From Pseudomonas sp. B6002 (GTDB taxonomy: Bacteria; Pseudomonadota; Gammaproteobacteria; Pseudomonadales; Pseudomonadaceae), in the NCBI RefSeq assembly GCF_013385985.1, contig NZ_JACAOY010000016.1, positions 62,001-126,000 of the forward strand: 64,000 bases of DNA, in the 5' to 3' direction. Below the pieces are notes generated by a model. The model worked only from the letters and a program-made list of their open reading frames with translations. It was not told the origin of the DNA and ran no database searches. The first letter of the stretch is position 1. Each line of letters begins with the position of its first letter. Both the position numbers and the translations under genes were made by a program. Positions 5,136 to 53,720 of the stretch are shown here, piece by piece.

Positions 5136-6101
5136 TCAGCGTTGTTTCATGCGGTCGATGATGACGGCCAATAGCAGGATGGAGCCTCGGATCACGTACT
5201 GGTAAAAGGTGTCGATGTTCTTCAGGTTCATCGCATTCTCGATGATCGCCAGAATCAGCACCCCGGCAATCACATGGCGGATCATCCCAATGCCGCCGCT
5301 CAGCGATACCCCGCCCAATACGCAGGCCGAAATCACCGTCAGCTCAAACCCCTGGCCGATCATCGGCTGGCCTGAGGTCATGCGCGAGGCTAGGATCACC
5401 CCGGCCAACGCACCAATCAAACCGTGCACGGCAAAGATGATGATCTTGGTGCGATCAACGTTCACACCCGCCAGCAACGCGGCTTCCTGGTTGCCGCCGA
5501 TGGCCATGGTGTTGCGCCCGTAGGTGGTGTAGTTGAGCAGCCAGCCAAAGAACACAAAGCACAGCACGGTGATGATGATCGGCACCGGCACGCCCATCAA
5601 CTGGCCGTTGCCGAACACGAAGAAGCCTTCGTCCATTACGCCGACGGCCTTGCCGTTAGAGAAGATGTAGGCCAGGCCGCGCACGATCTGCATGGTAGCC
5701 AGCGTGGCGATCAACGCATTGATGCGCAGCTTGGCGATCACGATGCCGTTGATCAGCCCCACCACCAGGCCCATGGCCAACGCCGCCGACACACCGAGCA
5801 CCACGCTGTCGGTGTCACGGATCACGATCCCCGCTACCACACCGGCACAGGCGATCACCGAGCCCACCGACAAGTCGAAATGCCCCGACGCCAGGCAGAA
5901 CAGCATGGTGCACGCCGCAATGCCCACGGTGGAAATCGCCAGGCCCAGGCCACGCATGTTCAGCGGCGAGAGGAAGTTGTCGATGAACAGCGCGCTGAGC
6001 ACAAAGATGGTCAACGCCGCGAGCAGCATCACCCAATCGTCGAGGAATTTGCGCTGGTTGAAACCCGGCCAGAAGCCCTTTGCAGTTTTTACCTGTGACA
6101 T
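5136..6101 (-). CDS. araH: L-arabinose ABC transporter permease AraH
   Basis: An integral inner-membrane permease of the ribose/arabinose branched family, 321 residues with about eight to ten hydrophobic segments. It carries the family's conserved GLINGIVIAKLRINALIATL and GGNQEAALLAGVNV stretches. It would form the channel energised by AraG and fed by AraF, importing L-arabinose or a similar aldose. It starts 19 bp after the araG stop on the same strand and is the last gene of the transporter unit. The family assignment is firm. The arabinose specificity rests on similarity of the whole three-gene set. Confidence 0.9.
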   Translation of the reverse strand: MSQVKTAKGFWPGFNQRKFLDDWVMLLAALTIFVLSALFIDNFLSPLNMRGLGLAISTVGIAACTMLFCLASGHFDLSVGSVIACAGVVAGIVIRDTDSVVLGVSAALAMGLVVGLINGIVIAKLRINALIATLATMQIVRGLAYIFSNGKAVGVMDEGFFVFGNGQLMGVPVPIIITVLCFVFFGWLLNYTTYGRNTMAIGGNQEAALLAGVNVDRTKIIIFAVHGLIGALAGVILASRMTSGQPMIGQGFELTVISACVLGGVSLSGGIGMIRHVIAGVLILAIIENAMNLKNIDTFYQYVIRGSILLLAVIIDRMKQR

Positions 6102-6120
6102 ACCTACACCCTCGAATTCT

Positions 6121-7626
6121 TCAAGCCCGCGAACGCGGGAGAGCCAGTTGCAACAGGCGTGCTTCGTCCGCCTGTTCGCGGGTCAATTCGCCGGTCAACG
6201 CCCCTTCGCTCATCACCAGGATGCGGTCGGAGATTCCCATCACTTCCATCAGGTCGCTGGACACCACGATCACCGCAATGCCGCTGGCCGCCAGGTTATG
6301 GATGATCTGGTAGATCTCCGACTTGGCGCCGATGTCGATGCCCCGCGTGGGTTCGTCCAGCAGCAGCACTTTCATCGGCATCGACAGCCAGCGGCCGAGA
6401 ATCGCCTTCTGCTGGTTGCCCCCTGAGAGGTACATGATTTTCTGCTGCGGGTTCGGCGTCTTGACCTTCATCGCCTTGATCTGCTGCTCGGCGTTGCCCC
6501 TCTCCCAGCCTTCGCGCAGCAGCCAGCCAAACGCCGAGTGCGCACCGCGCGCGCTGATGTTGATGTTTTCCGCCACGCTGGACAGCGGAATAATGCCTTC
6601 CTTCTTGCGGTCCTCCGGGCACAGCAGCACACCGGCGGCAATCGCATCGCGAGGGGAGTTCAACTGCAGTGTTTGCCCACACAGCGCCAGGCTGCCAGCG
6701 CTGCTGCGGGTCAAGCCACTGAGTAGCCGAAACAGCTCCGTGCGCCCTGCCCCGACCAATCCGAACAGGCCAAGAATCTCGCCCTTGTGTACCTTCAGGC
6801 TCACCGGTTCACGCAGGCCCGGCCCAAGCAAACCCTCGACCTGAAGCGCCACCTCGCCCGTCTCGCGAGGCCGGTAGTCGTAGATATCCTGGATATCGCG
6901 ACCGACCATGCAGGTCACCAACTGGTCATGGCTCAGTGTGCTCATGTCATCAAAGGTGCGCACGTAACGGCCGTCCTTGAACACGGTGACCGCATTGCAG
7001 ATGCGGAACACTTCCTCCATGCGGTGCGATACGTAGAGCACCACTTTGCCCTCGTCCCGCAGGCGCGTGATGATCGCCATCAAGCGGTCGATCTCCCGCG
7101 CCGACAGGCTGCTGGTGGGTTCATCAAAGGCAATCACATGGGCGCCGCGGGACAGCGCCTTGGCGATTTCCACCAGTTGGCGCTGGCCCAGGGACAACCG
7201 CCCGAGCTTTTCCTCTGGGTCGATTTCATCGGCCAGCCCCTTGAGACAGGCCAACGCTTGCTTGCGCAATTGGCTGCGATTGACCACGCCGAAGCGCGTC
7301 GGCAAGTGCCCCAGGAACAGGTTTTCGGCGACGGTCATTTCCGGCACCAGGTGCAGTTCCTGATGGATCACCGCCACGCCGCTGGCAATGCTGTCGGCGG
7401 CGTTCTTGAAGGCCATGGTCTGCTCGCCGATCTGCACCGTGCCACTGCTCGGCAGGTAGGCACCGCCGAGGATTTTCAGCAAGGTCGACTTGCCCGCGCC
7501 GTTCTCGCCCATCAGCGCGTGCACCTCATGGGGCCGCGCTTCAAAGCTGATCTGCGCCAGGGCTTTCACACCGGGAAATTCCTTGCCGATGCCATTGAAG
7601 CGCAAGGCCGCGCCGGTCATTTCCAC
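6121..7626 (-). CDS. araG: L-arabinose ABC transporter ATP-binding protein AraG
   Basis: A 501-residue sugar-importer ATPase with two fused nucleotide-binding domains. The first has Walker [10 protein letters not shown] (about 40), signature [15 protein letters not shown] and Walker [12 protein letters not shown]. The second has a degenerate Walker A (GLVGAGRTE), signature LSGGNQQKA and [12 protein letters not shown]. This asymmetry is usual for the RbsA/AraG/MglA group. Its start overlaps the end of araF by 10 bp (7617-7626), which implies translational coupling. It acts on the cytoplasmic face with AraH. Confidence 0.93.
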
Positions 7627-9717: not shown

Positions 9718-10197
9718 TCAGCCCTGGGCAAAATCGCGCAGCGCGTCGCCTTCCATGCGGTAGCGCACCCACTCTTCCTGCGGCTGGGCGCCGATGGATT
9801 TGTAGAAGGCAATCGCCGGTTCGTTCCAGTCCAGCACGCTCCACTCGAAGCGTCCGCAACCGTTGTCACAGGCAATCTTCGCCAAGTGGCGCAGCAGCTT
9901 CTTGCCGGCGCCGCCGCCGCGTTGCTCGGGGTTGATGTAGAGGTCTTCGAGGTACAGGCAGTTGCTGCCCAACCAGGTGGAATAGCTGAAAAAGAACACC
10001 GCAAAACCGATCGGCAAACCGTCCCGCGAACAGATCAGGCCGTGGGCGGTGGCACCCTCGCTGAACAGGCTGCGCTCGATATCCACCACACTGGCGATCA
10101 CTTCATGCCGGGCCTTTTCGTACTCGGCAAGCTCGGTGATGAAAGTCAGGATCTGCGCAGCATCGCTGGGCACGGCAGGGCGAATCTCGATGGTCAT
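9718..10197 (-). CDS. GNAT-family N-acetyltransferase (SSAT/thialysine type)
   Basis: The 159-residue protein resembles the diamine / thialysine acetyltransferases. It has RPAVPSDAAQILTFI at the start, YLEDLYINPEQRGGGAGKKL as the acetyl-CoA P-loop region (about 85-105), and EWSVLDWNEPAIAFYKSIGA near the end. It would acetylate a primary amine in the cytoplasm. The ATG at 10197 is preferred over an upstream GTG at 10227 because the domain begins right after it and AAGG lies upstream. It is monocistronic on this strand. The natural substrate cannot be read from sequence. Confidence 0.87.
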   Translation of the reverse strand: MTIEIRPAVPSDAAQILTFITELAEYEKARHEVIASVVDIERSLFSEGATAHGLICSRDGLPIGFAVFFFSYSTWLGSNCLYLEDLYINPEQRGGGAGKKLLRHLAKIACDNGCGRFEWSVLDWNEPAIAFYKSIGAQPQEEWVRYRMEGDALRDFAQG

Positions 10198-10263
10198 GGG
10201 CGAGCCTTGGGCAATTTCAAAGCTCACATACTAAGGCGCTTTGATGACCGATTGCAGCGCAAT

Positions 10264-10824
10264 TTATGCGCGCAGGGCCAAGGCGCCGACCAGCCCGGCC
10301 GGCAACCCCACCTCGACGGTGCGACAGCCCCGCGCGGCCCGTGGCGACCATTCGCCCAACCCCTGCCCCACACACTTGAGCCGTGCCTCGCGCTCACACC
10401 AGGCGCGGGTAAACAGGCGAGCGCGCTGGGCCTGGTTCGCGGCGCACAAGCGCGCCAGCACGTGCGGGCCCAGGTAGTCGCTCGTCACGCTTTGCCAGTC
10501 CGGGGTGTCCTGCACCGCCATCACGTCGATGCCGACCGGGCCATGCAAGTGCACCGCTGCCACCGAAAAATCGCCGTCGTGGCTGATGGAAAGCCCGGCG
10601 TCTTCATGCCCGGGCACACGGATCTGTGGGGCCTCGCCCGGTGCCGAGTGAAAGCGGATGCGCTCCTGGGGCACATCGAGCGCCTGCAGCAATGCCTCAC
10701 TCAGTGCCTGACGCACCCGCGCCCGGGCGGCTTCGCGGGTCATGCCTGGCACGTGTCGCAGGCCGATCAACAACACACCGTCCTGCCAGCGCGGCCGTGT
10801 TTCCGGCCACATGAATACGTGCAT
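10264..10824 (-). CDS. 4'-phosphopantetheinyl transferase superfamily protein
   Basis: This 186-residue protein has the two halves of the Sfp/AcpS-type fold: SISHDGDFSVAAV, then VGIDVMAV with the metal-binding Asp, then the W-x3-E-A-x2-K element in RAWCEREARLK. It should attach phosphopantetheine to a carrier domain. The start at 10824 lies five bases beyond the synthetase stop, so the two are cotranscribed, and its natural target is very probably the carrier domain of that synthetase (Ser576). An earlier start inside the synthetase gene is rejected. A second, unrelated PPTase lies at 53004-53720. Confidence 0.87.
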   Translation of the reverse strand: MHVFMWPETRPRWQDGVLLIGLRHVPGMTREAARARVRQALSEALLQALDVPQERIRFHSAPGEAPQIRVPGHEDAGLSISHDGDFSVAAVHLHGPVGIDVMAVQDTPDWQSVTSDYLGPHVLARLCAANQAQRARLFTRAWCEREARLKCVGQGLGEWSPRAARGCRTVEVGLPAGLVGALALRA

Positions 10825-10829
10825 CGCTA

Positions 10830-13800
10830 TCAACCTCGCGCCGGTGCCGCCGGGCAGCCCACCCAACTGCTGGAGGCCGGAATGCACTCGCCTTTCATCA
10901 CCAGCGTCAGCGGCCCGAGCCGTGCGCCGCTGCCGACTTCAGCGCTGTACAGCACCGAGCTGCGTGGCCCCATGTAGACGCGCTCACCGATCAGCACCTG
11001 GTCGATTTTCATCACGCGGTCTTCGAACAGGTGCGTCTGCGGGCAGGCACCGGCGTTCAATTCGCTGTGGTCACCGATGGTGACGCAGTCAAATTCGGTG
11101 ATGTCGGTGGTGTCCATGTACACCCCTCGCCCGATACGGCAGCCCAGGCCGCGAAAGGCCAGCGGCAGCCACGGCGTGCCGCGCAGGTAACTCATGAAGT
11201 TGGGCGCCGCCATGCCTTCGTAGAGGCTGGTAATGCCTTCGGAGAGCCACACAAACGGCGTCCACATCGCCGCCGAGCGTTTGCGATAGCGGCCCATCAC
11301 CAGCCACTTCAACGCCGCCACCAGCAGGTAGTTGCCCAGGCTGTAGGCCAAGCCGATCAGCGCCAGGTAGCCCAGCACCGCGCCCCAACGCTCGTCTTCA
11401 GCCACGGGCATCAAGTCGATCATCACCGTATAACCCACCGCAATCACGGTGGCGTGGGGCAGCACGATACGCAGCCCTTCAATCGCGCCACGGGCCAGAC
11501 GGCGCCACAGAGACGGGCGGAACGTGAGGTGGTCGGCATACCCACTGACCTGCTCACGCGCCGGCAGGTTGATCGGCGGCGAGCCCAGCCACGTATCGCC
11601 GCTGGCGATCTGCGCATTGGCCGGGGCGCGGGAATGCACGCCGATCAGTACGTTCTCAGGCAAGGTGGTGCCGTCCGGGATGTAGCTACCGTTGCCGACA
11701 AAACTGCGGTGCGACACCACCGTTGGTTGAATGCGCATCCAGCCGCCATCCACCTGTTCGTCGCCGAGCATGACCGCGTCGGCAATAAAGGTTTCATCGC
11801 CCAGGGTGAGCATGTCGGGAATCACGCCTTGCGCCGTGGAAATTTCCGCATCGCGACCTACCCGCGCGCCCAGCAGGCGATACCACAACGGCGCGTACAC
11901 CGTGGCATACAGGCCCGACAGCACATTGAGGCTGGCCTCCTGAATATGGCTCACCAACCATTTGCTGCAATACACCCGGCTGTGCACCGGGTAGTGGCCG
12001 GCTTTCAGGCGGGGCAACACAGCCCAGCGCAAACCGGCCGAGACCAGCATCATCACCACGATCAGCACGGCGGCCGCAGGCAGTGCCAGGGCAAAGTAGC
12101 GCAGCAGTTGCAGGCTCACATGCTGTTCCTGCAACAGCGGCAGAATGTGTTGCTCATCGAACCAGTCGATCAGGAAAAACGTCGGGAACACCGGGATGAA
12201 AAACAGCGTGGCGACCAGCAGGATGCCAAACACGTAGAACAGGTTTTCCAGCGCCAGTTGCCCGCGACTGACAACGGGCCGAGGTAGCAGGCTGGCGGGG
12301 TCGAACGCGCCGATATCGGTCGCCGGCGAACCGCTCCAGATACGCCCGGCCGGCACGCGGCGGCCGTCGGCCAATGCCGATTGCCCTTGCAGGTGGCCAC
12401 TGCGGCCGACGGCTGTGTTGCCTTCCAGGATCGTGTACGAACCCAGGCAGGCGTTGTCGTCGATCACCACCTGGCCCAGGTGCAATTGGCCGCGCTCGAC
12501 CCGGGCATTTTCCAGGCTGACGCCGTTGCCGATACTCACCTCATTGCCGATCTGCAGCAGGTCTGGCACCCGCACGCCCACCGAGCCGATGTTGGCCTCG
12601 CGCCCGACCTTGGCCCCCAGTGCACGCAGCCACAGGCCATACAGCGACGATCCACTTAGCAGGTAGACCGGCGCCGACTCGACCATGCGCGATGCGGCCC
12701 ACCAGCGAAAATAGGTCAGGCCCCACAACGGATAGACACCCGGTTTCAGGCGCCCGGCGATCAGCCATTTGCCGGCGATGGCCAGCACGAACTGCAACAG
12801 CGTCGCCAACAGGAATACGCCGATGGACGCCGCCGTGGCCGTGGCCACCGAATCACCGGGGCTGCCGGTGAGGTAGTGATAAGTAAAAAACGGCGCCAGC
12901 CACTGGCTCATGCGCAGGCACACCATGGCCGGCATCACCGCCGCCTGGGCCAGCCCGCAACGCCAGCGCGCCAGGGCCGAAGGCGGTGTCCAGGCGGCTT
13001 CCTGTACGACCGGCTGTGGCGCGGTTTGCAGCACCTGTGCAATCGCACCGACGCGGCGTTGCTGGTAGATGTCGCGCACGGTGATGTGGGCGAAACGCTC
13101 GTCGGCACGCAAGGCCGAAGCCAGCCGCGCGGCAAAAAATGAGTGACCGCCGAGGTCGCAAAAGAAGTCGGCGTCGCGCCGGATCGGCTGGCCGGGGAAG
13201 AGTTTTTCCAGGGCGACAAACAGGACAGTTTCGCCGGGGTTTTCCGGGGTGTCCGACTCCAGGTTCGCGCCGCTGATGTCTACGCCCAGCGGCCGCGCCT
13301 TGAGGGCCTTGCGGTCGATTTTGCCGGAGGTCAGCCGGGGCATGCCGTCGAGCAATTCAAAGCGACCCGGCACCATGTACGCCGGCAACCGCGCCTGCAA
13401 TGCCTTGCGCAATTGTGCGGGCAAGCCATCGACTGCCACGCCGCCTTCCGGCACCAGGTAGGCGATCAATTGATCCATGCCGCCGTCATTGCGCAGCAAT
13501 ACCGCGACGGTGCCGACGCCCGGCTGCTGGGCCAGCAAGGCCTCGATTTCGCCCAGTTCGACGCGAAAGCCACGGATCTTCACTTGGTCATCGGCGCGGC
13601 CCAGGCACATCACCTGGCCGTCGGCCTCGATGCGCGCCAGGTCGCCGGTGCGGTACAGGCGCTCATCGTAGTAGCCGGTGGACCACGGGTTGCTGATGAA
13701 TTTTTCGCGGGTCAGGTCTGGCCGTCCCAGGTAGCCGTCGGCCAGGCCCGGGCCGATGATGCACAGCTCGCCGGTCTGCCCACGACCCAGCAAAGTCGGG

Positions 13801-14867
13801 GTGGCGCCCGGGGCCAGGTCGGCGTCGATCACCAGCAAGCCGTAGTTGGGCAGTGGCGTGCCGATGGTCACCGGGCTGCCGGGCACCAAGCGCGCGAGGC
13901 TGGCAGACACCGTGGCCTCGGTAGGCCCGTAGGTGTTGAAGATCTGCCGGCCGGGGCGGCTCCAGCGCTCCACCAGCGACTCGGGGCACATCTCGCCGCC
14001 CAGGTTGATCAGGCGCAGGCTCGGCACGTCTTCACTGAACAATGCCAGCAGCGTAGGCACCGCGTGCAGCACGCTGATGCGTTGCTGGACGAGCATGCGC
14101 GGCAAGGCTTCGGGGTCACCGGTGATGTCCTTGGGGCCGATCCACAAGGTGGCGCCCACCAGATAGGCAATCCAGATTTCTTCGAACGACATGTCGAAAG
14201 CCACCGAGAAACCCTGGTACACGCGGTCGCTGGCCTGGATGCCGAGAATCGCGTTCTCGCTGCGCAGGAAATGGCAGATGCTGCCCTGGGAAATCAGGAT
14301 GCCCTTGGGTTTGCCGGTGGAACCGGAGGTGTAGATGACGTAGGCCGGGTCTTCCGGTTTAGCGTTAGTGCGGCGTAACAACGGCGCATCGGTGGGCGCG
14401 AGCAACGCTTCGGCGGTCCAGGCGACCAGCCCGACACTGCGCAGCGCCGCAGCGTTGCTTTCGCAGCTCAACACGCCAACCGCCTGAGCATCGTCCATGC
14501 AAATCTGCAGGCGCTCCAGCGGCGTGTCCTGGTCCAGCGGCAACCACGCGGCCCCCGTCTTGGCGATGCCTGCCTGCATGACCAGCAGCTCCAGCCCGCG
14601 CGGCATCCACAGGCCGACGATTTGGCCCGGCGCCACACCCGCTTCGATCAACCGTGAGGCCACGACACTGGCCTGGCGGTCCAGCTCGCCATAGCTGAGC
14701 TGGCGTTCGCCATCGATCAGCGCCACCTGATGGGGGTCACGCCGCACCGTGGCCTCGAGCAGGTCGGCCAGCACTTCGTGACGCAACAATTCAGGCTGGA
14801 GGGGACCGTACAACACCTCTGTCGGTCGGGTGACAACGGGGTCTTTCAGCAAGGTCACAGTAGTCAT
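10830..14867 (-). CDS. Pls/PosA-type non-ribosomal peptide synthetase (A-T-membrane C-terminal domain)
   Basis: A single 1345-residue protein. The adenylation domain (about 30-525) shows YTSGSTGKPKG, NTYGPTEATV, YRTGDLAR and SGKIDRKAL. The carrier domain has DLGGHSF with pantetheine-accepting Ser576. The C-terminal half (about 640-1345) has three hexapeptide-repeat lobes separated by about six membrane segments. There is no canonical condensation or thioesterase domain. This is the layout of epsilon-poly-L-lysine synthetase and relatives, where the C-terminal part polymerises or couples one amino acid. The pocket read by eye is D-M-E-H-I-L-T-V-S, and the acidic residue at the third position suggests a cationic substrate. 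The ATG at 14867 begins the conserved region. The product is unknown. Confidence 0.9.
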   Translation of the reverse strand: MTTVTLLKDPVVTRPTEVLYGPLQPELLRHEVLADLLEATVRRDPHQVALIDGERQLSYGELDRQASVVASRLIEAGVAPGQIVGLWMPRGLELLVMQAGIAKTGAAWLPLDQDTPLERLQICMDDAQAVGVLSCESNAAALRSVGLVAWTAEALLAPTDAPLLRRTNAKPEDPAYVIYTSGSTGKPKGILISQGSICHFLRSENAILGIQASDRVYQGFSVAFDMSFEEIWIAYLVGATLWIGPKDITGDPEALPRMLVQQRISVLHAVPTLLALFSEDVPSLRLINLGGEMCPESLVERWSRPGRQIFNTYGPTEATVSASLARLVPGSPVTIGTPLPNYGLLVIDADLAPGATPTLLGRGQTGELCIIGPGLADGYLGRPDLTREKFISNPWSTGYYDERLYRTGDLARIEADGQVMCLGRADDQVKIRGFRVELGEIEALLAQQPGVGTVAVLLRNDGGMDQLIAYLVPEGGVAVDGLPAQLRKALQARLPAYMVPGRFELLDGMPRLTSGKIDRKALKARPLGVDISGANLESDTPENPGETVLFVALEKLFPGQPIRRDADFFCDLGGHSFFAARLASALRADERFAHITVRDIYQQRRVGAIAQVLQTAPQPVVQEAAWTPPSALARWRCGLAQAAVMPAMVCLRMSQWLAPFFTYHYLTGSPGDSVATATAASIGVFLLATLLQFVLAIAGKWLIAGRLKPGVYPLWGLTYFRWWAASRMVESAPVYLLSGSSLYGLWLRALGAKVGREANIGSVGVRVPDLLQIGNEVSIGNGVSLENARVERGQLHLGQVVIDDNACLGSYTILEGNTAVGRSGHLQGQSALADGRRVPAGRIWSGSPATDIGAFDPASLLPRPVVSRGQLALENLFYVFGILLVATLFFIPVFPTFFLIDWFDEQHILPLLQEQHVSLQLLRYFALALPAAAVLIVVMMLVSAGLRWAVLPRLKAGHYPVHSRVYCSKWLVSHIQEASLNVLSGLYATVYAPLWYRLLGARVGRDAEISTAQGVIPDMLTLGDETFIADAVMLGDEQVDGGWMRIQPTVVSHRSFVGNGSYIPDGTTLPENVLIGVHSRAPANAQIASGDTWLGSPPINLPAREQVSGYADHLTFRPSLWRRLARGAIEGLRIVLPHATVIAVGYTVMIDLMPVAEDERWGAVLGYLALIGLAYSLGNYLLVAALKWLVMGRYRKRSAAMWTPFVWLSEGITSLYEGMAAPNFMSYLRGTPWLPLAFRGLGCRIGRGVYMDTTDITEFDCVTIGDHSELNAGACPQTHLFEDRVMKIDQVLIGERVYMGPRSSVLYSAEVGSGARLGPLTLVMKGECIPASSSWVGCPAAPARG

Positions 14868-15218
14868 GGCGGCAGTGTTCGCTGTGTGAGGGTCAATCCG
14901 GCCAAGGCGCCGATTTGTAATGCTGCGTGTCCACTTGGTATCCGCCTCGATACATTCACAGGCGAACGAGGCCCTCAGGTTCAGCCTTGAAAGCGACAGA
15001 TACCTCACGACCCGGATCACGCATCAGGACTATCGCAAAGGCCAGCTGTACGGCGGTTGAACAAACTCACTCGGCTTGACCGCTGGTCTGGAGGCAAGGC
15101 AAACAGCGGCTTTACTCCGCCCCGGGCTAATGCTGAAACCGGTAACCCCACAACAAACCTCGGCTTCACCCGTGCTAAAAGTTGGCGCCATAAATCCAAT
15201 AACCGCCAGGTTTTCCCC
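14868..15218. other. Divergent intergenic region between synthetase and MFS genes
   Basis: These 351 bases must hold the promoters of both the synthetase operon and the MFS gene. I find no strong sigma-70 pair, Fur-type box, terminator or REP in it, and no small gene with a convincing ribosome-binding site. In-frame extensions of both flanking genes cross it but lack family similarity. Confidence 0.5.
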
Positions 15219-16427
15219 ATGCCCGCTGCTGCCACGTTCTCCCGGCGACACTTCGTGTTGTTCTGCCTGGCGAGTTTTTTGTTGTCTTTGTCTTACGGCT
15301 CGACGTTCCTGCTGTCGCTGCTGATCCACACACGCGGCGGCAACGAACATGACGCCGGCAGCGTGATTTCCATGGCGATGCTGAGCACCTTTGTCGCGGT
15401 GCTGGTGTCGGGCCACTTGGCCGACTGGCTGGGCGCCGCCCGCTCGATTGCCGTGCTCGGCCTGTTGCTGGTGGTGGCGTGCCTGGGCTTTGCCCTGGTG
15501 CCGGGGTTTGGCGAAGGGATGATGCTGTTCGGCCTGGCATTGGGGCTGGGCTGGGGGGTGTTCTATACCCTGGGGCCGATCATCGTGGCCGTGCTGGTAG
15601 AACCCCAGCACCGCGCGCGTTACTTTGCGTTGCTGTCGGGCAGCATGATGAGCGGCATCGGCTCCGGCCCGTTGCTGGGGCGCGCGGCGAGCGCGCTGGG
15701 GTTGCCGCTGACGAGTGCGTTCCTGCTCGCTGCATTCGCCAGCCTGGTTGGGGTGGTGATGTTCTGGCGCCTGGGCGCGCATCTCAAGGGACACGCCAAT
15801 GCGCCGGTGGCGCGCATTTCCTGGGTGGCGACACGCGAGGTGCTGTCGTCCAAAGCCGCGTTTGCGATTGTCATGGTCGGCCTGGGCGGTTGTGTATTCG
15901 GCGGTTTGTCGTCGTTCCAGACCAGCTACGCGGCGGCCCGCTCGCTGGACTATTCGTTGTTCTTCCTGGGCTTTCTCAGCGCGGCAATCACCAGTCGCCT
16001 GCTGATTGCCGGCTTCGTGGTCAAGCGGGATGCCTACCGTGCCGCCTGTGTGTTGTCAGGCTTGATGGTGCTGTCGGTGGTGCTGTTCGGTTATGGGGTG
16101 TCGGGCAGTGGCAGCTATTTGCTGGCGGCCGTGATCCTGGGGGTCGGGTATGGCCTGACGTATTCGGTGATCAACGGGTTGGTGGCCAATGAAGCGCCGG
16201 CTGGCACCACGTCCCAGGCGTTGCTGCTGTTCAGCCTGGCGTATTTTGTGGGGGTGTTCGGCTTCCCTCTGCTGGCGGGCAAGATCATCGTCGAGCACGG
16301 CCTGCCGACGCTGCTGGCGTGCGTGCTGGGGGTGGCGCTGTTCAACTGGTTGATCACGGTGGCGCGGCTGATCTGGCGCCGGAGCCTGTCGAAGAGCGAG
16401 GCCTGTCACACAAAATCTTACAGGTGA
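15219..16427 (+). CDS. MFS transporter, possible exporter of the synthetase product
   Basis: A 402-residue major-facilitator protein with about twelve hydrophobic segments. LADWLGAARSIAVLG resembles the loop 2-3 MFS motif, and large loops are absent. The start at 15219 gives a normal cytoplasmic N-terminus (MPAAATFSRRHFVLF). The longer frame from 15057 adds a polar, unrelated stretch. It is divergent from the Pls-type synthetase, the place where biosynthetic loci often carry an exporter, so export of the product is a reasonable guess. Drug efflux or an unrelated role cannot be excluded. Confidence 0.82.
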   Translation: MPAAATFSRRHFVLFCLASFLLSLSYGSTFLLSLLIHTRGGNEHDAGSVISMAMLSTFVAVLVSGHLADWLGAARSIAVLGLLLVVACLGFALVPGFGEGMMLFGLALGLGWGVFYTLGPIIVAVLVEPQHRARYFALLSGSMMSGIGSGPLLGRAASALGLPLTSAFLLAAFASLVGVVMFWRLGAHLKGHANAPVARISWVATREVLSSKAAFAIVMVGLGGCVFGGLSSFQTSYAAARSLDYSLFFLGFLSAAITSRLLIAGFVVKRDAYRAACVLSGLMVLSVVLFGYGVSGSGSYLLAAVILGVGYGLTYSVINGLVANEAPAGTTSQALLLFSLAYFVGVFGFPLLAGKIIVEHGLPTLLACVLGVALFNWLITVARLIWRRSLSKSEACHTKSYR

Positions 16428-53003: not shown

Positions 53004-53720
53004 ATGACGCCCCTACCCGCTTGCTGCACCCCACTCGACGCCCATTGGCCGCTGCCCGACCCCTTGCCCGGTACGGTGTTCCTCAGCACCCGCTTCGACC
53101 CCACCCTGCTCGCGCAGGGCGACTTCCTGCGCTGCGCCGTGCTGCCGCCGGCCAGCATTCAGCGCTCAGTAGCCAAGCGCCAGGCCGAATTCCTCGCCGG
53201 CCGCCTGTGCGCCCGCGCAGCCCTGCAACAGCTCGACCATATGGATTGCGTGCCCGCCATCGGCGACGATCGCGCGCCGGTCTGGCCGGCCCATATCAGC
53301 GGTTCCATCACCCACAGCACCGGGCATGCGGCGGCGATTGTCGGGCACAAGGCGCAGTGGCGCGGGCTAGGGATGGACCTGGAGAATGTGCTAAGCCTGG
53401 AACGGGCGGAGCGCCTGGCAGGGGAAATTCTGACGGCTGATGAGCTGCAACGCATGGCCAGCGTGCCGCGTGAGCAGATTGCTCTAGTGGTGACGCTGAC
53501 GTTTTCGGTGAAGGAGAGTTTGTTCAAGGCGCTCTACCCGATTGTGCAGAAGCGCTTTTACTTTGAGCATGCCGAGGTGGTGGAGTGGTCGGCGTCGGGC
53601 CGGGTGCGGTTGCGACTACTGACGGACTTGTCCGAAGAATGGTGCCATGGCAAGGAATTGGTGGGGCAGTTTGCGGTGGACGGGGAGCAGTTGTTGAGCC
53701 TGGTGGCCATCAGCGCCTGA
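53004..53720 (+). CDS. 4'-phosphopantetheinyl transferase, EntD/PcpS type
   Basis: A 238-residue PPTase of the EntD branch: AEFLAGRLCARAALQQL, SGSITHSTGHAAAIVG, GMDLENVL with the metal-binding Asp, and TFSVKESLFKALYPI with the W/F-x3-KE-x2-FK signature. In P. aeruginosa the single enzyme PcpS of this type, in the same neighbourhood, serves both AcpP and peptide synthetases. It should modify acpP (31443-31679) and perhaps siderophore synthetases. It is divergent from the phoPQ operon. Confidence 0.9.
   Translation: MTPLPACCTPLDAHWPLPDPLPGTVFLSTRFDPTLLAQGDFLRCAVLPPASIQRSVAKRQAEFLAGRLCARAALQQLDHMDCVPAIGDDRAPVWPAHISGSITHSTGHAAAIVGHKAQWRGLGMDLENVLSLERAERLAGEILTADELQRMASVPREQIALVVTLTFSVKESLFKALYPIVQKRFYFEHAEVVEWSASGRVRLRLLTDLSEEWCHGKELVGQFAVDGEQLLSLVAISA

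Follow-up and report, generated by a model that had tools for sequence, protein, structure and literature searches.

The window (the whole 64,000-nucleotide stretch of Pseudomonas sp. B6002 DNA that we analysed) carries a two-gene unit, a posA-like synthetase with a PPTase, that very probably makes delta-linked oligo- or poly-ornithine. The synthetase is thus an orthologue of PosA whose product can be predicted and whose PPTase partner is conserved. The family of the synthetase, the identity of its pocket, the pairing of the two genes and their position with a resident gene on either side were observed in our analysis; the substrate, the product and the linkage are predicted by analogy with PosA.

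Layout of the locus

The relevant features of the window are:

10830-14867, minus strand: synthetase, posA-like (Pls/PosA family), ATG start, 1345 aa; adenylation domain at residues ~31-525, carrier serine Ser576, membrane/hexapeptide C-terminal half at ~626-1345
13905-14195, minus strand: substrate-pocket segment of the synthetase, residues 225-321 (D225, M226, E229, H268, N288, G290, T312, V320 and S321; the tenth residue, K516, lies further on)
13140-13157, minus strand: carrier motif DLGGHS, residues 571-576, containing Ser576
11016-11039, minus strand: QTHLFEDR, residues 1277-1284, with His1279; the third C-terminal repeat may have its catalytic centre here
10264-10824, minus strand: PPTase (phosphopantetheinyl transferase), presumably dedicated to the synthetase, which it follows; 186 aa (Pfam ACPS)
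15219-16427, plus strand: MFS transporter, divergent from the synthetase; resident neighbour, outside the unit
9718-10227, minus strand: GNAT acetyltransferase, flanking the inserted pair opposite the MFS gene; resident neighbour, outside the unit

The PPTase starts five bases past the stop of the synthetase. Gene coordinates and Pfam and NCBIfam matches confirm this arrangement, divergent MFS gene included, as it had been noticed in the preliminary description. A simple consensus scan of positions 10100-15400 returned no promoter-like sites (0.8 expected) and 11 terminator-like sites (3.8 expected); within 10100-15218, all but one of the latter fell in the pair and its neighbouring genes of interest, overlapped them or lay at their edges. 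Elsewhere in the window, arabinose-type ABC transporter genes are found at 5139-7626 on the minus strand (AraG, 824.1 bits; AraH, 505.7 bits; both over cut-off), with genes for a sugar-binding protein and an SDR enzyme beside them.

The synthetase belongs to the Pls/PosA family

The NCBIfam model TIGR02353 ('Pls/PosA family non-ribosomal peptide synthetase') scored 885.9 bits on residues 640-1340, where 423.1 bits are required, and the NCBIfam amino-acid adenylation domain matched residues 58-456. Pfam gave AMP-binding (37-380), AMP-binding_C (440-516) and hexapeptide-type matches, and neither a condensation nor a thioesterase family at E 0.001. The Pfam carrier model had no match at that same threshold; the carrier was called because of the DLGGHS motif and the NRPS models that run across it, and Ser576 is a serine in 81/81 aligned proteins. 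The enzyme hence has the Pls/PosA layout already attributed to it in the preliminary description: one adenylation and one carrier domain, with no condensation or thioesterase domain.

Within this family the closest characterised enzyme is PosA, published in 2023 as the delta-poly-L-ornithine synthetase of Acinetobacter baumannii (PMC10522769). Its adenylation domain is the best PDB match to the window synthetase (8g95/8g96; E 9.1e-162), and the nine pocket residues covered by the crystal chain are all identical to those of the window in the alignment. The product of the A. baumannii posA gene that we used for comparison is identical to the crystallised adenylation domain over 412 residues. The two proteins share their domain order and 55% identity over 1339 aligned positions, C-terminal half included (53% for that half alone). 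They differ in genetic context: the posA of A. baumannii is described as a single-gene operon (PMC10522769), whereas that of the window is paired with a PPTase. Pls, the epsilon-poly-L-lysine synthetase of Streptomyces, has the same domain order, the Pls/PosA C-terminal domain and the QTHL..DR motif, but is 34% identical (plasmid-borne pls) and has another pocket code. In a tree of 33 chosen proteins, the window protein, PosA and all 26 other rows with the PosA code formed a single 28-row clade (100/100), separate from the members with other codes, among them two rows of DLED code; PosA and the row g6 sit on long branches, so the order within the clade is uncertain.

The pocket code is that of PosA

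The pocket of the window synthetase reads D-M-E-H-N-G-T-V-S-K (residues 225, 226, 229, 268, 288, 290, 312, 320, 321 and 516), identical to the code printed for PosA in PMC10522769. The eight pocket residues numbered for PosA in that paper sit eight positions higher in the window protein, among them the mutation-tested D217, M218, E221, T304 and S313. The columns were validated with Streptomyces Pls, which yields DAESIGTVVK at the same places, as printed in PMC12195549. A reading by eye in the preliminary description, D-M-E-H-I-L-T-V-S, had seven of its nine letters right; the two wrong letters, I for N288 at position 5 and L for G290 at position 6, came from taking the columns one to the left. 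Its view of a basic-amino-acid type of pocket is supported, and the alignment with enzymes of known product that it proposed gave a code equal to that of PosA and different from that of Pls.

The code DMEHNGTVSK is common to the window and to 80/80 named relatives; these 80 are the best among 441 confirmed ones and lean to close kin. Other members of the family diverge. Those from Azospirillum and Rhizobium have DLED-type pockets (DLEDIGSVVK in L113 and DLEDIGTVVK in L114), and DLEDIGTV-type codes are given in PMC10522769 as unique signatures without an assigned product. A Sphingomonas member has a nearly identical code, DMEHNGTVTK, yet falls outside the PosA-code clade.

PosA is reported to prefer L-ornithine over L-lysine by more than 160-fold, and to accept D-ornithine only about two-fold less well than the L form (PMC10522769). 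With such a small preference, either stereochemistry is possible for the product of the window enzyme. The product obtained in vitro with PosA was free delta-poly-L-ornithine of 7-12 units (PMC10522769). An undescribed type of product, which the preliminary description had thought possible, is not supported: pocket and full-length similarity both lead to an enzyme whose product is published.

A C-terminal half with three related repeats

The C-terminal half contains three repeats that are mutually related (hhalign probabilities of 98.0, 95.1 and 99.2). Six transmembrane helices in three pairs would be expected for the family. Hydropathy gave five separate peaks, and a structure model of mediocre quality (mean pLDDT 62.9, pTM 0.68; poor around His1279) showed three pairs of long helices, in three blocks that each consist of a helix pair plus strands. 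When solved structures were searched by sequence, this half matched gamma-carbonic anhydrases and hexapeptide acyltransferases, in all cases only weakly (E 7.2e-06 at best). A fold search with the mediocre model again gave the hexapeptide-acyltransferase fold class, with query TM-scores of at most 0.17 among the 50 matches listed. From the model, the fold would be of the left-handed beta-helix acyltransferase class, with no finer assignment, in agreement with the PosA model published in PMC10522769, where a model and nothing more is offered for the C-terminal domain of PosA.

The motif QTHLxxDR occurs only at the third of the three equivalent places in the repeats, and its residues Q1277, T1278, H1279, L1280, D1283 and R1284 are invariant in 10 diverse members of the family, including PosA and Streptomyces Pls. 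From this conservation we propose that the third repeat may hold the only active centre, with His1279 as its base.

Taken together with what is known of PosA, a plausible sequence of events would be the following. The PPTase would prime the carrier at Ser576, giving the holo form, and the adenylation domain would activate ornithine and then load it onto the carrier. By analogy with PosA, Asp225 would hold the alpha-amine and Glu229, Thr312 and Ser321 the side-chain amine, while Met226 would limit chain length. The membrane-embedded C-terminal domain, with its three repeats, would then join ornithines through the delta-amine, repeatedly. The catalytic residue, the biological role and the way of export are conjectural.

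The PPTase is a widely conserved partner

To count the synthetase across the genus we took 150 genomes, drawn from a larger group, and considered only those in which TIGR02353 scored over its cut-off, which were seven; partial hexapeptide-type matches at E 0.001 are present in 150/150 and were not counted as synthetase. A strong match to the PPTase (E at most 5.7e-36; next best 4.8e-6) was found in exactly these seven genomes, adjoining the synthetase in each. Among the 80 named loci, the PPTase lies directly downstream and on the same strand in 68, one copy (L067) being cut by a contig end. Clustering of the neighbours caught PPTases in 42 loci only, so this count was taken from other comparisons. 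Leaving out the L067 fragment, residues G98, D100, W142, E146 and K150 of the PPTase are identical in 68/68 aligned proteins (the window and 67 loci). Apart from the PPTase, the commonest neighbour cluster reaches 14 of the 80 loci.

The remaining 12 named loci have no PPTase neighbour, and 11 of them have about 9 kb of downstream sequence present; all four Collimonas loci are in this group. Among more distant records, a PPTase is annotated beside the synthetase in Rhizobium and Sphingomonas and is not among the genes listed for A. baumannii, Azospirillum, Rhodococcus and Streptomyces, in gene tables that may be incomplete. Synthetase and PPTase are a real and widespread two-gene unit, and the partnership claimed in the preliminary description is borne out.

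The genome has a second PPTase, at window positions 53004-53720 on the plus strand, whose best NCBIfam match is EntD (108.9 of 169 bits, below the curated cut-off). It is probably the general PPTase for the large NRPS genes of this genome. Given this second gene, the PPTase adjoining the synthetase is an extra one.

The MFS transporter is a resident neighbour

The locus had been read in the preliminary description as a three-gene make-activate-export unit, with the divergent MFS transporter exporting the polymer. The window has the transporter adjacent and divergent, as do its two nearest named loci (L030 and L031), but these are the only two of the 80 named loci where it was found (some of them have little flank). 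Across the genus, with at most 12 candidates scored per genome, an MFS match at E 1e-20 was present in 54 of the 150 genomes, 52 of which have no synthetase over the cut-off, and at that threshold five of the seven synthetase-bearing genomes had no match. MFS and synthetase were found together only in the window genome and in G011, where they lie on different contigs. Loci L017 and L018, from genomes resembling P. trivialis and P. poae, keep the pair with no MFS match at the same site, though relatives have the MFS there. Conversely, the GNAT and MFS genes adjoin without the pair in 5/5 synthetase-less loci examined (L019-L022 and L024), with 154-722 bases between matching ends, whereas about 5 kb separate them in the window; the synthetase-PPTase pair is thus placed between two resident genes. 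An exporter as member of the unit was rejected on these counts, and a three-gene unit is very unlikely. The MFS is a bystander outside the unit, although it could still serve in the window strain. The survey of co-occurrence across pseudomonads that had been suggested thus came out positive for the PPTase (7/7) and negative for the MFS.

Two other readings concern the product. The C-terminal domain could move ornithine or a short chain to another acceptor (a lipid, a polysaccharide or a peptide), giving a capped amide and not a free homopolymer. The likeness of this half to single-transfer hexapeptide acyltransferases in the fold search agrees with such a reaction, as does a Pls/PosA-like gene that is part of an Ottowia hybrid lipid cluster (PMC13291983); against it, the C-terminal half of PosA belongs to an enzyme that releases free polymer in vitro (PMC10522769), and, the PPTase aside, no neighbour cluster recurs beyond the 14 loci mentioned above, so we consider it unlikely. 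Alternatively, the homopolymer could be built from a different diamino acid (lysine, Dab or Dap): enzymes of the same family make such polymers, and all of them share an acidic residue at the third pocket position. Position 2 of the pocket, however, is Met, as in PosA, and not Ala (Pls) or Phe (Dap/Dab type), which disfavours the three substrates, and the code as a whole equals that of PosA, making this reading extremely unlikely. Delta-linked oligo- or poly-ornithine is the predicted product that we retain.

Probable horizontal transfer of the pair

The nearest named relatives of the window synthetase, within the best 80 of 441, come from Pseudomonas sp. P7548 (98%), P. costantinii, P. poae and P. 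trivialis, and further ones from other Pseudomonas, including species of the P. syringae group, and from many Oxalobacteraceae. In the 33-protein tree, a group of 19 rows (100/100) is made up of 13 from Pseudomonas and 6 from Oxalobacteraceae, and the one row from another Pseudomonadaceae genus lies outside it, on a long branch. The pair occupies the site of the window in L017 and L018, while none of the window's flanks surrounds it in L013-L016. This mixing in the tree, the presence in only 7 of 150 genomes of the genus, and a site shared in some loci against other flanks elsewhere point to horizontal movement of the posA-PPTase pair.

At the family level, a synthetase match at E 1e-200 was found in 10/99 genomes and 2/19 genera. 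In the other Pseudomonadaceae genus the synthetase is near-core (8/9 genomes searched), and the five loci examined there (L025-L029) showed no homologue of the window PPTase. In these 5/5 loci the synthetase lies between genes of the peroxidase (PF00141) and SdiA-regulated (PF06977) families. A survey of the order at E 1e-200 gave the synthetase in 1/194 genomes, the window's own, with only three candidates per genome scored among the matches listed, so that copies may be missed.

Discussion

It is conceivable, though we hold it for doubtful, that the posA-PPTase pair is a mobile and self-sufficient antifungal system of Pseudomonas associated with plants and fungi and of Oxalobacteraceae such as Janthinobacterium, Duganella and Massilia, with its own PPTase letting delta-poly-ornithine synthesis work in new hosts. 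Some antifungal effect has been reported for a synthetic 12-mer of delta-poly-ornithine (PMC10522769). The Collimonas loci, 4/4 with a synthetase and no adjacent PPTase, stand beside such a self-sufficient pair as an exception.

The class itself is not new to Pseudomonas: it has been predicted there as the antiSMASH class 'NAPAA' (PMC13387001; a cluster is also mentioned in PMC8704066). PMC13387001 reports 142 NAPAA clusters predicted in 225 P. viridiflava genomes, one family of which correlates with plant size after infection (0.42), an association that, according to its authors, population structure could influence. The P. viridiflava locus among our relatives (L040) has a synthetase orthologue with a PPTase; the published clusters are class predictions for which we saw neither substrate nor product, and they may correspond to the window gene. 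In the literature on poly-L-lysine synthetase, cationic homopolymers, poly-L-ornithine and NAPAA, of which our coverage was partial and mostly outside subscription journals, we found no report of such a product from a Pseudomonas enzyme.

What had been an unknown product becomes a specific and easily testable prediction, delta-poly-ornithine, for an enzyme present in some Pseudomonas and many Oxalobacteraceae. Were the antifungal reading true, Pseudomonas would have its first demonstrated cationic homopolymer, within the reach of the literature searched. And should the predicted product prove right, many bacteria outside Acinetobacter would become likely natural producers of a polymer that until now has been made in vitro.
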